Below, piece by piece: positions 1 to 37,369 of a stretch of 37,369 nucleotides of DNA (the stretch's first letter is position 1; every line of letters begins with the position of its first letter). The DNA comes from a virus. The notes beneath the pieces were generated by a model. It saw nothing but the letters and a program-made list of their open reading frames with translations, did no database searches and was not told the DNA's origin. Location of the stretch: the IMG/VR virus record IMGVR_UViG_3300021963_000326, positions 1 to 37,369 of that record; one strand, written 5' to 3'. Both the position numbers and the translations under genes were made by a program.

Positions 1-161
1 AGATCCAACGACTACAGCTTCAAGTCTTACCATGCCTACGGCAACCGCAATCGACGCAGTAATGACCAACATGAAAACCAACAGCACGTTTCGGCTGACG
101 GTTGTCAACATTGGCACTAGCACCGGCGTGGTTACGATGGTGGTTGGCACCGGCATTACTG
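1..161. repeat. Terminal direct repeat, left copy (circular-map overlap)
   Basis: Bases 1-161 recur at 37209-37369 with one difference (c at 127, a at 37335), which is a synonymous third-position Gly change in the gene that spans the join. This is what a circularly permuted phage genome looks like when assembled and opened. A physical terminal repeat of 161 bp cannot be excluded, but the position inside a coding gene favours assembly overlap. Confidence 0.93.
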
Positions 162-3457: not shown

Positions 3458-5460
3458 TGGCTAACCTAAACATCACCAACATTCCCGCGCCACGGGTGCC
3501 GTTCATCGACGAGCGCACCGGCCTGATGGCGCGGGAGTGGTATCGGTTCTTTCTCAACCTGTTTGTTTTGACCGGCAGCGGCAACAACCCCATCACGCTT
3601 GAGGAGTTGCAGCTTGGACCACCCAACCAGCCAGACCTGACCGAGTTGCTGATCCAGATCAACCAGAACATCGCCCCGCAATACGAGGATCAATCGGGCG
3701 ACTTCTTGGCGACCCTTGACACCGCGCAACTGATGTCGATGATGTCGCGGTTTGAGAACGCAGAAGCCGCCATCCAGGGGGCGTACCTCCAGCCGGTTGT
3801 GCAGACCGGCACCATCGCCAATTACAATCTGGACGGTAGCCCAACGGCGGGCGGCATAGCCTATGGCACCGGCCCTGCGTTGGCAGTCAGTGCCGCCGGG
3901 ACAGTGGGACAGGTGCTGACCAGCGGCGGTGCTGGAGCGCCAACATGGGCAACTGATGGCGGTGGAACCGTCACCAGCGTTTCGGTGGTGTCTGCCAACG
4001 GGCTGGCGGGGACGGTGGCAACGGCAACAACGACCCCGGCGATCACGCTCTCCACGACCATCACCGGGCTGCTGAAAGGCAACGGCACCGCAATCAGCGC
4101 AGCGGCCAGCGGCACTGACTACGCCCCGGCGACCAGCGGCACCTCAATTCTGTACGGCAACGGCTCGGGCGGGTTCAGCAACGTCACCATCGGCACAGGC
4201 GTTGCCTTTGCAGCCGGAACGCTATCGGCAACCGGATCGGGCGGTACTGTGACCAGCGTGACCGGCACCGCGCCAGTTGTCAGTTCGGGCGGCACCACGC
4301 CAGCAATCTCGATGGCCGCTGCAACAACGAGCGTAAACGGTTACTTGACCAGCACCGACTGGACGACCTTTAACAACAAGCAAGCCGCGCTGGTCAGCGG
4401 CACTAACCTCAAAACGGTCAATGGCACAACGCTGCTTGGCTCGGGCGATCTTGGCACAATCACCTATGCTTACGGCGGTACTGGCCTGACATCTTACACC
4501 GCAGGCGACATAATCTACGCCAGCGCCGCTAACACGGTTGCCAAACTTGCTATCGGCACCAGTGGGCAGCGGCTCGTGGTTGCCGGAGGTCTGCCTAGCT
4601 GGGCAACCGATACAACGGTTGGAACCGTTACCAGCGTAGCGCAGTCATTTACCGGCGGCTTGATCTCGGTTGCTGGCTCACCGATCACTACATCCGGCAC
4701 GCTGGCCTTAACGGTTGCTGGCACCTCGGGTGGTATTCCGTATTTTTCAAGCGCATCAACCTGGGCAACCTCGGCTGCGCTTGCTGCCAGCGCGTTAGTT
4801 ATTGGCGGCGGTGCTGGGGCAGCGCCAGCTTCGACCACAACCGGAACTGGCGTTGTTACCGCGCTCGGTGTCAATACCGGAACGGCAGGCGCGTTTGTGG
4901 TCAACGGCGGCGCTCTGGGTACACCTTCCAGTGGTACGGTTACCAACCTGACCGGCACCGCCAGCATCAACATCAACGGGACGGTTGGGGCTACAACGCC
5001 GACCACCGGGTCTTTCACTACGATGAAGGCCAGCACAGGCGCTGCTGTCGGTGGTGCCACTCCCGGTGCTGGCGGCATTGCATTCCCCGCAACGGCGGTT
5101 GCTGTGGCAGATGCCAACACGCTGGATGATTATGAGGAAGGCACTTGGACACCAAATCAGGGATCAGGGCTTACTGTGGTTGGCGCGTTTACTAGCACTG
5201 GTACATATACAAAGATAGGCCGCATGGTTGTTGTTCAGGGCCAGATGCAAGGCGCAACTTCAATTGCAATAACTGCCGGTAATATTTTGACTAGCAATAT
5301 GCCATTCACTAGCTTAGAAAATAACGCAGGCAGCATGACCGTTGGTGTAGGCTCTGGCGGTGCGGTCTTAGGTCTTGGTGCTAGTACGCAAATATATTCA
5401 GCATTCACTGTCGTAGCAACGGCGTCATCTTTGCTTTTTACAGTAACAATTTTTGTTTAG
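3457..5460 (+). CDS. Tail fibre-like protein with repetitive shaft
   Basis: A 667-residue protein, GTG start overlapping the previous stop by one base. Residues 1-110 form a distinct virion-attachment-like head with IPAPRVPFIDERTGLMAREW and WYRFFLNLFVLTGSGNN, seen in phages of this type in front of variable fibres. Residues 130-540 are a long Gly/Thr/Ala/Ser shaft with fibre repeats such as GTVTSV and TSGTSILYGNG. Near residue 555 is LDDYEEGTWTP, a recurring junction motif in phage fibres, after which the final 110 residues form a short beta domain. Base composition becomes visibly AT-richer after about 5140, as in the following tailspike, suggesting an exchanged tip. Confidence 0.8.
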   Translation: MANLNITNIPAPRVPFIDERTGLMAREWYRFFLNLFVLTGSGNNPITLEELQLGPPNQPDLTELLIQINQNIAPQYEDQSGDFLATLDTAQLMSMMSRFENAEAAIQGAYLQPVVQTGTIANYNLDGSPTAGGIAYGTGPALAVSAAGTVGQVLTSGGAGAPTWATDGGGTVTSVSVVSANGLAGTVATATTTPAITLSTTITGLLKGNGTAISAAASGTDYAPATSGTSILYGNGSGGFSNVTIGTGVAFAAGTLSATGSGGTVTSVTGTAPVVSSGGTTPAISMAAATTSVNGYLTSTDWTTFNNKQAALVSGTNLKTVNGTTLLGSGDLGTITYAYGGTGLTSYTAGDIIYASAANTVAKLAIGTSGQRLVVAGGLPSWATDTTVGTVTSVAQSFTGGLISVAGSPITTSGTLALTVAGTSGGIPYFSSASTWATSAALAASALVIGGGAGAAPASTTTGTGVVTALGVNTGTAGAFVVNGGALGTPSSGTVTNLTGTASININGTVGATTPTTGSFTTMKASTGAAVGGATPGAGGIAFPATAVAVADANTLDDYEEGTWTPNQGSGLTVVGAFTSTGTYTKIGRMVVVQGQMQGATSIAITAGNILTSNMPFTSLENNAGSMTVGVGSGGAVLGLGASTQIYSAFTVVATASSLLFTVTIFV

Positions 5461-8347: not shown

Positions 8348-9475
8348 ATGAGCTTCTGGACAGACATACGCGACACCGTTGAATCGGTTGCTTCCGTTGC
8401 AGGTAATTTTTTCTTGCCAGGATCGGGGGCAATTACCTCGCAACTGGTTAGCGAAGGTGCCCAAGACATGCTGGGTTCAGGTTTGGGGCAAATTGCTATG
8501 CTCGGCAGCGGTGTGGCTGGCGGGGTAGGCGGGAACCTGTCCAATTACGGCAAGGTTTTTGATGCGGCAGGTAATTTTGCAAGCGGTGGCGAAAACGCAC
8601 TAAGCAACTTGTTTAGTACGGGTAGCGCGGGGGCACAGTCAAATACTCCTGCGTTTAAAAACCTATTTGATACTTATATAAACACCGGAGCCACGCCCCA
8701 AGAAGCGTTGCAATTTACCCAAGACGCACTGTCACAAGGGTCTTCAGGCGCAACCAATTGGACAAAATACCTTACAAGCCCGTCAGTGCTTGGATCTGTC
8801 ATTAGCGGTGGTGCGGGACTGCTTGGCGCGGGTCTGCAAGCCAACGCTGCAAGGCAAGCAGCACAAGGTATTGCTGACGCAAACATCAGTTCCAACCAGC
8901 TCATGGCTAGGATGAACGAGCAAAACCAAGCTCGGCAGGAACCGTTCTATCAAGCTGGTTTGCGTGCGCTTCCTGCTTATACGCAAGGCGTAATGCCTGG
9001 TGGCGATCTGGTTAGACCGTTTGCAATGTCTGACTATCAAGCAGATCCTGGCTACGGCTTTCGAATGTCCGAGGGTTTGAAAGCACTGGACCGAAACGCC
9101 GCCAGCCGCGGCAACCTGCTATCTGGCTCAACTCTGAAGGGTGCCACTCGGTATTCTCAGGATCTGGCAAGCCAAGAATACAATAATGCGTACAACCGCT
9201 ATGTTGGCAATCAGGCCACGCAGCGCAACGCACTGGCCGGTTTGACGGGCTTTGCCCCAACCGCATCATCTGCCATGCAAGCCGGTGATACGGCTTACGG
9301 CAGCAACGCGGCAAACCTTGCCAGTAACACAGCCGTTGCAAACGCTGGCGCTGGGGCTACTCGCGCGGGAGCTTACGGCGAAGCAATCAAGGGTATTGGG
9401 CAGAACGTCTACAACATGATGAATCCCGATCCCATAAATGCAATGATGGCCGCGTATATGCAAAGAGGAAGGTAA
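8348..9475 (+). CDS. DNA ejection/transfer protein (P22 gp7/gp20 functional position)
   Basis: A 375-residue protein. The N-terminal half is Gly/Ala/Ser-rich with hydrophobic stretches (IAMLGSGVAGGVGG, about residue 55, and VISGGAGLLGAGLQANAA, about residue 150), fitting membrane interaction. The C-terminal half has the conserved ejection-protein module: QARQEPFYQAGLRALPAYTQ, DPGYGFRMSEGLKALDRNAA, SRGNLLSGSTLKGATRY and QEYNNAYNRY. This module is usually annotated as DNA transfer or injection protein in podoviruses and siphoviruses. It is the first of three consecutive long genes that replace the P22 gp7-gp20-gp16 block. It is likely packed inside the head and released with the DNA. Confidence 0.8.
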   Translation: MSFWTDIRDTVESVASVAGNFFLPGSGAITSQLVSEGAQDMLGSGLGQIAMLGSGVAGGVGGNLSNYGKVFDAAGNFASGGENALSNLFSTGSAGAQSNTPAFKNLFDTYINTGATPQEALQFTQDALSQGSSGATNWTKYLTSPSVLGSVISGGAGLLGAGLQANAARQAAQGIADANISSNQLMARMNEQNQARQEPFYQAGLRALPAYTQGVMPGGDLVRPFAMSDYQADPGYGFRMSEGLKALDRNAASRGNLLSGSTLKGATRYSQDLASQEYNNAYNRYVGNQATQRNALAGLTGFAPTASSAMQAGDTAYGSNAANLASNTAVANAGAGATRAGAYGEAIKGIGQNVYNMMNPDPINAMMAAYMQRGR

Positions 9476-26904: not shown

Positions 26905-27621
26905 CTAAGCCATCGCAAAATGGCGCGCCATGGCGCCATGGACGATAATGGCCGCGCTAGCCTTCGTGGCGCGTCCACCATCGCATGCCTGGCAGTCGAT
27001 GCATTGCATACGCTCGCCCCCTTCTGGGCTCGCCGGGCATGCGAATTCGTTAGATTGCAGGGGTTCCGTTTCGGTGCGGACCCTAAAAGTCCGCCAGCCC
27101 ATGGCGCGCGCGATATCCTGCTCTGCTACGCTGTCAACGGATGCCATGACATAATCTTTTAACGATTGCGCCCACATTCTGCGCCAGGCGTGTGTGTACC
27201 CGGTCCGGCCGGCCGCAGCTGCTAACAGCATGCGCCACTGGCGGACCGGAACCATGGCCGGATCGCCATAGGCGCCCATTCGCACAATGCGCTGTGCAAT
27301 GAGTATCGCGACGGTACCGGGATCATCGGACAAGTCTATGTAATGTCCGCGATGGTAGGCGGACCATACTGAGGATGGCGATTTTCCGATATCAACGTAA
27401 CAGGTCCGTTTACGTGTGGCATTGCCACGGTGCGCGCAATTGCCACAAATAGAGCGATCCTCGCCAGACTGGATAGCATCAAGGGGCGAGATATCCTCTC
27501 GCAGGATCCACGTTTGGACCATATCGCCAGTCTTACCGTTTACTGATTTTAGGGTAGCAATGGCAACAATCGGCGCGCCATCAATCGGACTAGGTCCGCG
27601 AAAGAAGATAAATCCGGCCAT
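26905..27621 (-). CDS. Cys-rich conserved phage protein, first gene of the leftward clamp operon
   Basis: A 238-residue protein with a beta-rich N-terminus (MAGFIFFRGPSPIDGAPIVA) and GKTGDMVQTWILRED. Two Cys clusters stand out: SICGNCAHRGN plus RTCYVDIGKSP at about residues 57-80, and MQCIDCQACDGG near 205-216; both look like zinc or Fe-S sites. Between them, RQWRMLLAAAAGRTGYTHAW is helical. Related proteins are widespread in phages beside replication genes; from memory the family may be DUF7227, which I cannot verify. A DNA-related role is inferred. The promoter at 27686-27714 drives it. Confidence 0.75.
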   Translation of the reverse strand: MAGFIFFRGPSPIDGAPIVAIATLKSVNGKTGDMVQTWILREDISPLDAIQSGEDRSICGNCAHRGNATRKRTCYVDIGKSPSSVWSAYHRGHYIDLSDDPGTVAILIAQRIVRMGAYGDPAMVPVRQWRMLLAAAAGRTGYTHAWRRMWAQSLKDYVMASVDSVAEQDIARAMGWRTFRVRTETEPLQSNEFACPASPEGGERMQCIDCQACDGGRATKASAAIIVHGAMARHFAMA

Positions 27622-27732: not shown

Positions 27733-27860
27733 TTGCATGTTATTTGCAGGTTCTTTCCCTCGCGCTTGCGCTCGTTCGTGGGGCGTATGGGCCTGATAAG
27801 CTATATTTCAGTTAGTCATATTTAGGAATCTTAAAAGTTAGGTATGTATAGGTAGCAGGG

Positions 27861-27890
27861 CGCGCGCGCCACAGCGCGCGCGCTGGCGCC
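27861..27890. repeat. Alternating GC tract with perfect 14-bp palindrome
   Basis: Near-continuous CG/GC alternation, with CAGCGCGCGCGCTG (27872-27885) self-complementary and GGCGCC following. Such alternation can adopt cruciform or left-handed DNA. It stands out sharply from the AT-rich DNA just to its left. Confidence 0.7.
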
Positions 27891-27936
27891 GACTTAAAAC
27901 GGGTGCCGAAACTGCACATATGGCCTATAACCCTGT

Positions 27937-27964
27937 GCCAGCCAGCCAGCCAGCCAGCCAGCCA
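27937..27964. repeat. Seven tandem GCCA tetranucleotides
   Basis: 28 bases made of exactly seven GCCA units. No gene reads through it, so a phase-variation role is unlikely. It may be a slippage product or a binding-site cluster. Confidence 0.9.
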
Positions 27965-28002: not shown

Positions 28003-28238
28003 GCCGGATCCGATGGACCGCGGGATCCGATGGACCGATGGACCGCGGGATCCGATGGACCGATGGACCGCGGGATCCGATGGACCGATGGACCGATGGA
28101 CCGCGGGATCCGATGGACCGATGGACCGCGGGATCCGATGGACCGCGGGATCCGATGGACCGCGGGATCCGATGGACCGCGGGATCCGATGGACCGCGGG
28201 ATCCGATGGACCGCGGGATCCGATGGACCGATGAATCC
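28003..28238. repeat. Two-word tandem repeat array (8-bp and 9-bp units)
   Basis: The 236 bases are made of two words: A = GATGGACC and B = GCGGGATCC. Starting from a variant B (GCCGGATCC, 28003-28011), the numbers of A after each B are 1, 2, 2, 3, 2, 1, 1, 1, 1, 1, 1, giving 16 A and 10 further B, then a degenerate end GATGAATCC (28230-28238). The intact words are identical to each other. There are 11 GGATCC sites at spacings of 17, 25 or 33 bases, and every A-B joint makes CCGCGG. Possible roles are iterons, packaging site or regulator-binding array. Confidence 0.95.
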
Positions 28239-28370
28239 GCCTTCCAGGCATCGAGCATCGAGAATTGTTGCATTGCAGCATAGGGGGAGAGAGGGCCGAG
28301 CGCCAAGGGCACAGGTCAGGGCAGCGTTCGTAAGCAATTTTTCAAAATTTTTTATGTCCGCAAGCCAAAC

Positions 28371-28418
28371 ACTTACGCCCCCACTTACGCCCCCACTTAC
28401 GCCCCCACTTACGCCCCC
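28371..28418. repeat. Four tandem copies of a 12-bp repeat
   Basis: ACTTACGCCCCC occurs four times without change (28371, 28383, 28395, 28407), followed by a partial copy and a short duplicated TAGGCCAAA / TAGGCTAAA. It lies 57 bases before the terminase ATG and just after an AT-rich stretch. Confidence 0.93.
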
Positions 28419-28439
28419 ACATAGGCCAAATAGGCTAAA

Positions 28440-28469
28440 TGGACAACGTGTTTAAGTCCGTGGTATAAC
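28440..28469 (+). promoter_or_regulatory. Promoter for the terminase/late operon
   Basis: TGGACA (28440-28445), 18-base spacer, TATAAC (28464-28469) with a TGG extension directly before it. Matches to consensus are 5/6 and 5/6. The expected start of transcription, about seven bases after the minus-10, is the A of the terminase ATG (28476), which would make a leaderless message. Confidence 0.55.
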
Positions 28470-28475
28470 GCAGCC

Positions 28476-28883
28476 ATGTTCCAGTCCCTACCACTGGCTA
28501 TCCGACCTAGAGTTCAGGCGACAGAGGCGCGTCTGGATGCCATATATAAAGCAGCATCTATGGGGTTGAAAGGAGATTCACTGGCACTGGCGTCTGGGAT
28601 GCTGCCTTTGGAGTACCGGCAATTGTGCCAATTTGACCCATTGGCCGAACTGGCCGCGCAAAAGGGCAAGGCCGATAGTGAGTTGCGCGCAGCGCAGCGT
28701 CTGAACGAGGCGTCTGAACAAGGCGACGCCAAGGCGAGCCTGGCAATACTTCAACACGTCCACGGGTGGACAGCACGGCAGGAGATCAGTGTGGACGTGT
28801 ACCAGAAGATCAGCGTCATCACGGCGCTTGAGCAGGCCCGCGCAAGGGTGATCGAGGGGCAAGCAGTTGAGATAAGCCCCTGA
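28476..28883 (+). CDS. Terminase small subunit
   Basis: A 135-residue protein directly upstream of, and overlapping by one base, the large terminase. The N-terminal part (ATEARLDAIYKAASMGLKGD ... ASGMLPLEYRQL) looks like a helix-turn-helix DNA-binding domain; the centre (QKGKADSELRAAQRLNEASE, GDAKASLAILQHVHGW) is the helical oligomerisation region seen in small terminases. It recognises the packaging site, often near or in its own gene. No ribosome site precedes ATG 28476, which fits the leaderless promoter reading. P22 gp3 is 162 residues, so the size is plausible. Confidence 0.83.
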   Translation: MFQSLPLAIRPRVQATEARLDAIYKAASMGLKGDSLALASGMLPLEYRQLCQFDPLAELAAQKGKADSELRAAQRLNEASEQGDAKASLAILQHVHGWTARQEISVDVYQKISVITALEQARARVIEGQAVEISP

Positions 28884-30406
28884 TGCAAACCCCAATCTAC
28901 ACCTCCGAAGACGAACAAAAGCTCATGGTTGAGTTGTGGTCGCCGCAGATCTGCGACGACCCGGAGGCGTTTGTTCTGCTGGCCTTCCCGTGGGGCCAGA
29001 AGAACACCCCGCTGCACAAGTTCAAAGGCCCGCGCAAGTGGCAGCGCGAAGTCCTGCGCGACATCAAGCAACATATAGATAACAACAAGGGTAAGGTGCA
29101 GATGGACACCCTGCGAGAGGCGGTCAGTAGCGGGCGCGGGATCGGCAAGTCAGCCTTGGTGAGTTGGCTGGTGCTGTGGATGCTGACCACCCGCATCGGC
29201 GCGAGCGTCATCATCAGCGCCAACTCGGAGAGTCAACTACGGTCGGTGACCTGGGCCGAGCTAACCAAGTGGGCGGCGATGACCATCAACAACCACTGGT
29301 TCGAGATCAGCGCGACCAAGCTGGTGCCGGCGGCGTGGCTATGCGAGTTGGTCGAGCGGGATCTCAAGAAAGGTACGCGGTACTGGGCCGCAGAGGGCAA
29401 GCTCTGGTCGGCTGAGAACCCCGACAGCTACGCAGGCGTCCACAACCAGGACGGCATGATGCTGATCTTCGACGAGTCATCAGGTATCCCCAACCCTATC
29501 TGGGAGGTTGGCGCCGGGTTCTTCACCGAGAACACACCGGACAGGTACTGGTTTGCTTTTAGCAACCCCCGGCGCAACGAGGGGTACTTTTTCGAGTGTT
29601 TTAACGCAAAAAGAGCGTTCTGGAACACCCGTAGTGTGGACGCAAGAACGGTGGAGGACACCGACAAGCAGGTCTACGAGCAGATTATCGCCGAGTACGG
29701 CGAGGACAGTCCCCAGGCCAAGGTGGAGGTGTATGGTGAATTTCCGAGCGCGGGTGAGGATCAGTTCATCTCGGCGGTGCTGGTGGACGATGCAGCAAAA
29801 AGACCCCGATACAAAGATGCCACCGCACCTGTGGTTATGGGAATTGACCCAGCGCGAGGCGGCGCTGACTCGACGGTTATCGTGGTCCGTCAAGGGCGCG
29901 ACCTGGTGGCGATAAAACGCTACTCGGGCGAGGACACCATGACCATCGTCGGGCGGGTGATCGACGCCATCGAGGAATACAAGCCTACGCTGTCAGTAAT
30001 CGACGAAGGCGGCCTCGGATACGGCATACTTGACAGGCTGACAGAACAACGGTACAAGGTGCGTGGGGTAAACTTTGGCTGGAAGGCCAAGAACTCCATT
30101 ATGTGGGGCAACAAGCGGGCTGAAATGTGGGGCACCATGAAGGACTGGCTGAAAACAGCGTCCATCCCGACCGACCGGCAACTAAAAGCCGATCTGCTTG
30201 GACCCATGAAGAAGCCCAACAGCAGCGGTACGATTTTCCTTGAGGGGAAAAAAGAGATGCGAAGCCGAGGACTGGCCTCACCCGATGCCGCTGACGCGCT
30301 GGCCGTCACGTTTGCTTTCCCTGTCGCGCACCGCGAGTACCGCGAACCTGCGCGCCGGATAAATTCTCAGTCAAACAGCGTAACTAACTCTTGGATGGGC
30401 AGTTAG
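28883..30406 (+). CDS. Terminase large subunit
   Basis: A 507-residue DNA packaging motor, ATPase plus nuclease. Walker A is SSGRGIGKSALVSW near residues 82-95, Walker B with catalytic Glu is MLIFDESSGIPN near 193-204, the coupling motif SNPRRNEG follows near 231. The RNase H-like nuclease has MGIDPARGGADST near residue 319 (first Asp), SVIDEGGLG near 372 and ASPDAADALAVTF near 466 (last Asp). It is close in size to P22 gp2 (499 residues), and this lineage typically packages by headful, which fits the circular map. ATG overlaps the small subunit stop. Confidence 0.95.
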   Translation: MQTPIYTSEDEQKLMVELWSPQICDDPEAFVLLAFPWGQKNTPLHKFKGPRKWQREVLRDIKQHIDNNKGKVQMDTLREAVSSGRGIGKSALVSWLVLWMLTTRIGASVIISANSESQLRSVTWAELTKWAAMTINNHWFEISATKLVPAAWLCELVERDLKKGTRYWAAEGKLWSAENPDSYAGVHNQDGMMLIFDESSGIPNPIWEVGAGFFTENTPDRYWFAFSNPRRNEGYFFECFNAKRAFWNTRSVDARTVEDTDKQVYEQIIAEYGEDSPQAKVEVYGEFPSAGEDQFISAVLVDDAAKRPRYKDATAPVVMGIDPARGGADSTVIVVRQGRDLVAIKRYSGEDTMTIVGRVIDAIEEYKPTLSVIDEGGLGYGILDRLTEQRYKVRGVNFGWKAKNSIMWGNKRAEMWGTMKDWLKTASIPTDRQLKADLLGPMKKPNSSGTIFLEGKKEMRSRGLASPDAADALAVTFAFPVAHREYREPARRINSQSNSVTNSWMGS

Positions 30407-37062: not shown

Positions 37063-37369
37063 ATGGCACTTCCCTCAGTTGGTGGCGGCTATCAGTTCAC
37101 TGATGGCAATACGAATGAACTGGAAATTGACACCCAAGCAGCGCCGCAAACGGCAACGTCCACGGCAACCTTGACCACCACGCAAGTTTTGGGTGGTCTG
37201 TTGGTAGTAGATCCAACGACTACAGCTTCAAGTCTTACCATGCCTACGGCAACCGCAATCGACGCAGTAATGACCAACATGAAAACCAACAGCACGTTTC
37301 GGCTGACGGTTGTCAACATTGGCACTAGCACCGGAGTGGTTACGATGGTGGTTGGCACCGGCATTACTG
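37063..37369 (+). CDS. Small virion-type protein, N-terminal part (continues at base 1-277)
   Basis: ATG 37063 follows a strong TTAGGAGAAACG ribosome site. The reading frame is open to the window end and joins in frame to 1-277 through the 161-base overlap, giving about 140 residues: MALPSVGGGYQFTDGNTNEL, then AAPQTATSTATLTTTQVLGG and the part described at base 1. It comes straight after coat, the usual place for a decoration or head-stabilising protein. That role is inference. The single base that differs between the two overlap copies is silent. Confidence 0.87.
   Translation, partial: MALPSVGGGYQFTDGNTNELEIDTQAAPQTATSTATLTTTQVLGGLLVVDPTTTASSLTMPTATAIDAVMTNMKTNSTFRLTVVNIGTSTGVVTMVVGTGIT
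37209..37369. repeat. Terminal direct repeat, right copy
   Basis: Same 161 bases as 1-161, with one substitution at 37335. See the left copy for interpretation. Confidence 0.93.

Follow-up and report, generated by a model that had tools for sequence, protein, structure and literature searches.

The pac site of phage SPP1 carries direct repeats at terS, the gene of the small terminase subunit (PMC4737164). The boxA repeats of SPP1 are absent from SF6, and yet the TerS proteins of SPP1 and SF6 are interchangeable; moreover, the DNA-binding domain of SF6 TerS binds DNA without sequence preference (PMC4737164). Such sequence-blind loading is not general, since the TerS of HK97 recognizes a specific sequence (PMC11331095), and it is a matter of continuing debate how small terminases find the pac site, published models being sequence-independent in some cases and sequence-specific in others. 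Direct repeats are likewise found in the SPP1 replication origins oriL and oriR, where they are combined with an AT-rich unwinding element (PMC6316719). In the literature, no report of the locus described below was found, and the paper on DSL-LC05, which carries an equivalent of terS, does not mention repeats.

The DNA analyzed here, a stretch of 37,369 nt from a freshwater phage (hereafter the window), contains between a leftward gene and terS a tandem array of two words, A (GATGGACC, 16 copies) and B (GCGGGATCC, 10 copies), arranged in the exact order ABAABAABAAABAABABABABABABA (Table 1). The TRF score of the array (301) was far beyond chance, and every copy of either word in the window lies inside it. 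The exact words cover 218 nt and are bordered by decayed edge units of 9 nt on each side (GCCGGATCC on the left and GATGAATCC on the right); an earlier note on this DNA, which described the array as built only from A and B, is thus right for 218 of the 236 bases and wrong for the outer 9 nt per side. Since units of 8 and 9 nt follow one another in a frame-shifting order, the array is non-coding.

The GGATCC spacings of 17, 25, or 33 nt given in that note were reproduced, as were its counts of 11 GGATCC and 10 CCGCGG within the array, whereas the rest of the genome holds only 1 of each against Markov expectations of 6.5 and 19.6, respectively. Its suggestion that six-base palindromes are avoided also held outside the array, with 269 seen against 634 expected (42% of expectation). 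The "length code" read from the number of A words between B words found no support: mixtures of two to five words are usual among the relatives, and the spacing is therefore an ordinary map of mixed variant repeats. The words GATGGACC and GCGGGATCC are in themselves nothing special, and it is the family-wide pattern that deserves attention.

Table 1. Features of the repeat slot and its surroundings in the window.
Feature	Coordinates	Strand	Remarks
Leftward bordering gene	26905..27621	-	phrog_2554, function unknown
GC-rich inverted repeat	27855..27892	.	GGCGCGCGCGCC..GCGCGCGCGC, left of the arrays; z -2.1
Outer tetranucleotide array	27937..27964	.	(GCCA)7
Two-word GC-rich tandem array in variable repeat slot	28003..28238	.	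exact words 28012-28229; decayed edges 28003-28011 and 28230-28238
Conserved non-coding core adjoining the slot	28273..28348	+	G-run, GGGCC, (A/G)CAATTTTT T-run
12-nt repeat	28370..28420	.	CACTTACGCCCC x4.2; related 11-12-mers GCCCSYACATCA at this place in relatives
9-nt repeats	28419..28440	.	ATAGGCCAA, upstream of the terS promoter
Putative terS promoter	28440..28469	+	TGGACA, 18 nt, TATAAC; conserved, directly before ATG
terS, putative small terminase subunit	28476..28883	+	helical/HTH-like N-terminus; overlaps terL start
terL, large terminase subunit	28883..30406	+	phrog_2, E 1.8e-43

As summarized in Table 1, the array is one of several repetitive elements at this locus. Relatives have an equivalent of the inverted repeat in the same position, and arrays like (GCCA)7 occur at about -560..-360 in L104, L115, L126, L112, and L121. 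The putative terS promoter was deduced from the conserved flank and was not picked up by a generic promoter scan; given this promoter, the array would fall outside the late transcript. The identity of TerS is putative and is based mainly on synteny, together with the DSL-LC05 counterpart, which belongs to Pfam Sf6_terminase and shares a C-terminal block with it; the structure model of TerS was of low confidence, and a fold search with it returned no significant match. The protein of the leftward gene is also encoded by many mycobacteriophages, Klebsiella phages, and roseophages. The two ends of the window (1-161 and 37209-37369) overlap by 161 nt at 99.4% identity, and the sibling contig L091 runs across the end junction; the record, though classed as linear, maps as a closed circle of about 37,208 bp.

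Relatives were collected as two IMG/VR sets found through TerL and TerS (about 85, not phylogenetically independent), and tandem-repeat finding was run on 84 distinct loci. In the 250-nt bins of the 500 nt upstream of terS, arrays were present in 52-64%, as compared with 0-6% elsewhere within 4 kb. When the region -700..-100 of terS was inspected in the 56 relatives that had sufficient flank and a terS of at least 75% identity, tandem repeats were found in 52, in a slot lying 160-550 nt upstream of terS and with array lengths of about 40 to 380 nt. In the remaining four (L013, L020, L114, and L119), an ORF intervenes between terS and this region. That of L020 (2182-2844) is a weak NUMOD4-type ORF, beyond which palindromic repeats and the core are found, and L013 has a 22-mer repeat at -910..-838 with its core anchor at -783. 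The earlier note had counted relatives lacking any repeat here as evidence against its view, and no intact, readable slot without repeats was encountered among the relatives examined (52 readable). Its link between the array and the terminase or control region is supported, the position being specific in dozens of relatives. The ORFs inserted between core and terS in L013, L114, and L119 were noticed by reading only; in L093, an HNH_3 endonuclease ORF (3497-3943) occupies the same interval. The TerL relatives L198 and L199 come from betaproteobacterial (Rhodoferax) assemblies, a weak hint at the host, and L198 has the palindromic repeats.

The core adjoining the slot aligns in 76 relatives and is conserved as sequence, its T-run lying 3' of the slot in 76 sequences, so that the repeats adjoin an AT-rich region as they do in iteron origins. 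A core HMM trained without the window gave one match per genome, adjoining the slot, with an E value of 6e-14 for the window; in DSL-LC05 the core-like match was weak (E 0.38) yet rightly placed, behind imperfect GC-rich words. A conserved RNA was rejected, as the core alignment yielded no consensus secondary structure and no Rfam family exceeded the gathering score. Cumulative GC skew reaches its minimum at the slot in the window and in the relatives G001 and G003, and elsewhere in others, with gene orientation as a confounder.

While the place of the repeats is constant, their words are not. Word sharing was uncorrelated with terS identity (Spearman 0.04; 38 arrays, 703 pairs), and words were unrelated even at 95-97% terS identity. 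Phages with terS 91-98% identical to that of the window use CGGCCTGTC (L095), CCGGCC (L112), GCCTGTCG (L108), CCGGCTCGA (L111), CTCGACCGGCTCACGG (L102), or TGGCC combined with GTGC, ACC, G, or GACATCSASS linkers (L104, L012, and L115). The conserved iterons or fixed-sequence terminase box envisaged earlier are not supported, given these differences between phages with 97% identical TerS. Apart from those of the sibling L091, the words closest to the window's are found in L109, whose short array of GATGGACC and GCCGGACC adjoins palindromic repeats. Exact window words occurred elsewhere in IMG/VR at about the chance number (an estimate), except in L091 and the unrelated phage L212, and a search of plasmids gave no match. 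In L212, arrays of GGTCCATC, the reverse complement of word A, stand at 8843-8961, in a gap between divergent genes some 3 kb ahead of a terminase small-subunit gene, and the words are kept in its relative L221 (801-831); this is possibly a coincidence.

GC-rich words are the commonest occupant of the slot, being found in most phages. The second occupant is a 17-nt palindrome, AGTTAGTGCYYACTAAC, recurring every 22-26 nt and conserved between phages (81 sites), which stands upstream of terS in L098, L100, L106, L107, L109, L134, and L136 and has no site anywhere in the window. Another clade (terS 76%) carries TTGCCTAGGCAATGG repeats in the same slot, and these have given way to GC words in L157 and L162, as compared with L033 and L166; the switch from palindromes to GC words is the same in both clades. 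GC words and palindromes were nearly exclusive, with both in 2 phages, GC words only in 28, palindromes only in 11, and neither in 4 (Fisher P 8e-6, uncorrected for ancestry). GCC or GGC was present in 33 of the 34 GC words, against a permuted maximum of 31, and the words were predicted to be modestly more bendable than permuted ones (mean percentile 0.71, with non-independent words). A primase trinucleotide site was discarded as an explanation, GCC occurring in 33 of 34 words and being absent from those of the window. Chi arrays were also dismissed: the (GGTGGCT)n slot arrays of L025, L030, and L146 contain, by reading, the E. coli Chi GCTGGTGG, and other words lack it.

On a much shorter evolutionary scale, L091 differs from the window by about three substitutions in 13 kb (99.9% identity), and as assembled it has both window words and a uniform run shorter by three AB units; its contig starts within the array, and the left array part is thus not comparable. 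This difference between near-identical genomes fits rapid copy-number change, as in minisatellites, and supports the recent slippage or unequal exchange proposed in the earlier note. Comparison of the locus across phages, which that note had recommended, changed the meaning of the array, the words not being conserved between relatives.

Taken as a whole, the evidence, comprising place, repeat persistence, word turnover, alternation, and the conserved core, tentatively favors a repeat slot with a word-blind loading or wrapping role over a neutral hotspot and over word-specific iterons. In the neutral case, which we regard as a serious though less probable alternative, the array would be a minisatellite without function at a mutational hotspot, where restarting replication, cutting by terminase, or recombination at the neighbouring core would create and expand repeats by slippage and annealing. 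The free word content uncorrelated with ancestry, the wide range of array lengths, the decayed edges around a uniform centre, and the change of unit number in L091 would all be expected of such a hotspot. So would the lack of excess self-complementarity in the words (P 0.40 in the word permutation test; array z 0.41), on which grounds a selected hairpin or cruciform was also rejected. A high birth rate of repeats could even account for their persistence, yet a neutral origin sits less easily with the 0 of 52 readable intact slots devoid of repeats and with the near-exclusive alternation with conserved palindromic repeats, which suggests a common role; the GCC or GGC shared by nearly all GC words points the same way, though common ancestry could explain it. 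An iteron-type origin or operator appears improbable; every set of words would here have a matching initiator or repressor, encoded by phage or host, that recognizes it. Repeats adjoining an AT-rich tract do resemble SPP1 oriL/oriR (PMC6316719), and the strongly conserved palindromic alternative resembles a true protein site; however, a repeat sequence conserved under the same initiator was found only for the palindromes, and the words of L118 are unrelated to those of the window although the TerS, TerL, polymerase, and primase of the two phages are 91-93% identical. Nor does any gene or gene cluster in the 4 kb left flank track the array type (best uncorrected P 0.03), and a cognate protein next door was accordingly rejected; the phrog_2554 gene lies beside 8 of 26 GC-word arrays and 0 of 12 palindromic arrays (uncorrected P 0.04).

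The dense GGATCC and CCGCGG sites, depleted elsewhere in the genome, could suggest a restriction or modification decoy or the Dam-sensitive switch raised in the earlier note. This is very improbable, as the consensus words of other phages lack GATC and share no common site or palindrome, palindrome enrichment over permuted words is slight, and GATC is present in the genome neither in excess nor in deficit. Least credible of all is an assembly artefact: a large number of contigs stop in this region and short reads give uncertain copy numbers, but independent contigs from many metagenomes show arrays in this one position that are built of differing words.

Since repeats are present in essentially every close relative and the words mostly differ even at about 97% identity, the slot seems to keep repetition but not sequence, and we consider, with somewhat less than even confidence, that the array occupies a hypervariable repeat slot of a packaging and/or replication start region. 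A use in starting packaging or replication is suggested by place and persistence. The repeated tract may assist the loading or wrapping of a protein that forms rings or oligomers, such as TerS or a replication initiator, beside the core, acting through repetition, length, or flexibility instead of a fixed sequence. Slippage, unequal exchange, and recombination during co-infection could then freely rewrite the words, and the A/B "code" would be a record of recent duplications and not information. A stronger proposal, that the cis-acting element is defined by repetitiveness, such that any short GC-rich repeated word can replace the conserved palindromic iterons, is rather doubtful; if true, the element could be wholly rewritten without change in the proteins that use it. 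Near-identical terS regions with different words and a conserved core offer a natural series for a direct test of pac recognition, and the locus is an unusually fast-changing marker for distinguishing phage strains in lakes.

Compared with the known systems, the locus is like the SPP1/SF6 pac in having direct repeats just upstream of the terS start, a conserved promoter (here putative) and terS start, and a repeat sequence that varies between related phages, the TerS proteins of SPP1 and SF6 being interchangeable. This likeness concerns repeats and place; in a pac site of this type, TerS would bind the repeats and TerL would cut there. In SPP1 a small number of box repeats overlap the promoter and the gene, whereas the window family has short GC-rich words that run to as much as 380 nt, located upstream of terS and swapped wholesale between near-identical phages. 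With iteron origins such as SPP1 oriL/oriR it shares direct repeats that adjoin an AT-rich tract in the interval separating the replication genes from the late genes, but iterons are conserved with their initiator, whereas the slot words are not. The GC-rich units of 8-17 nt, interspersed variants, copy-number change, and decayed edges are those of minisatellites (VNTRs), from which the slot differs in residing at one fixed site of a 37-kb phage genome, in having an alternative palindromic occupant, and in the replacement of its words over very short evolutionary distances.
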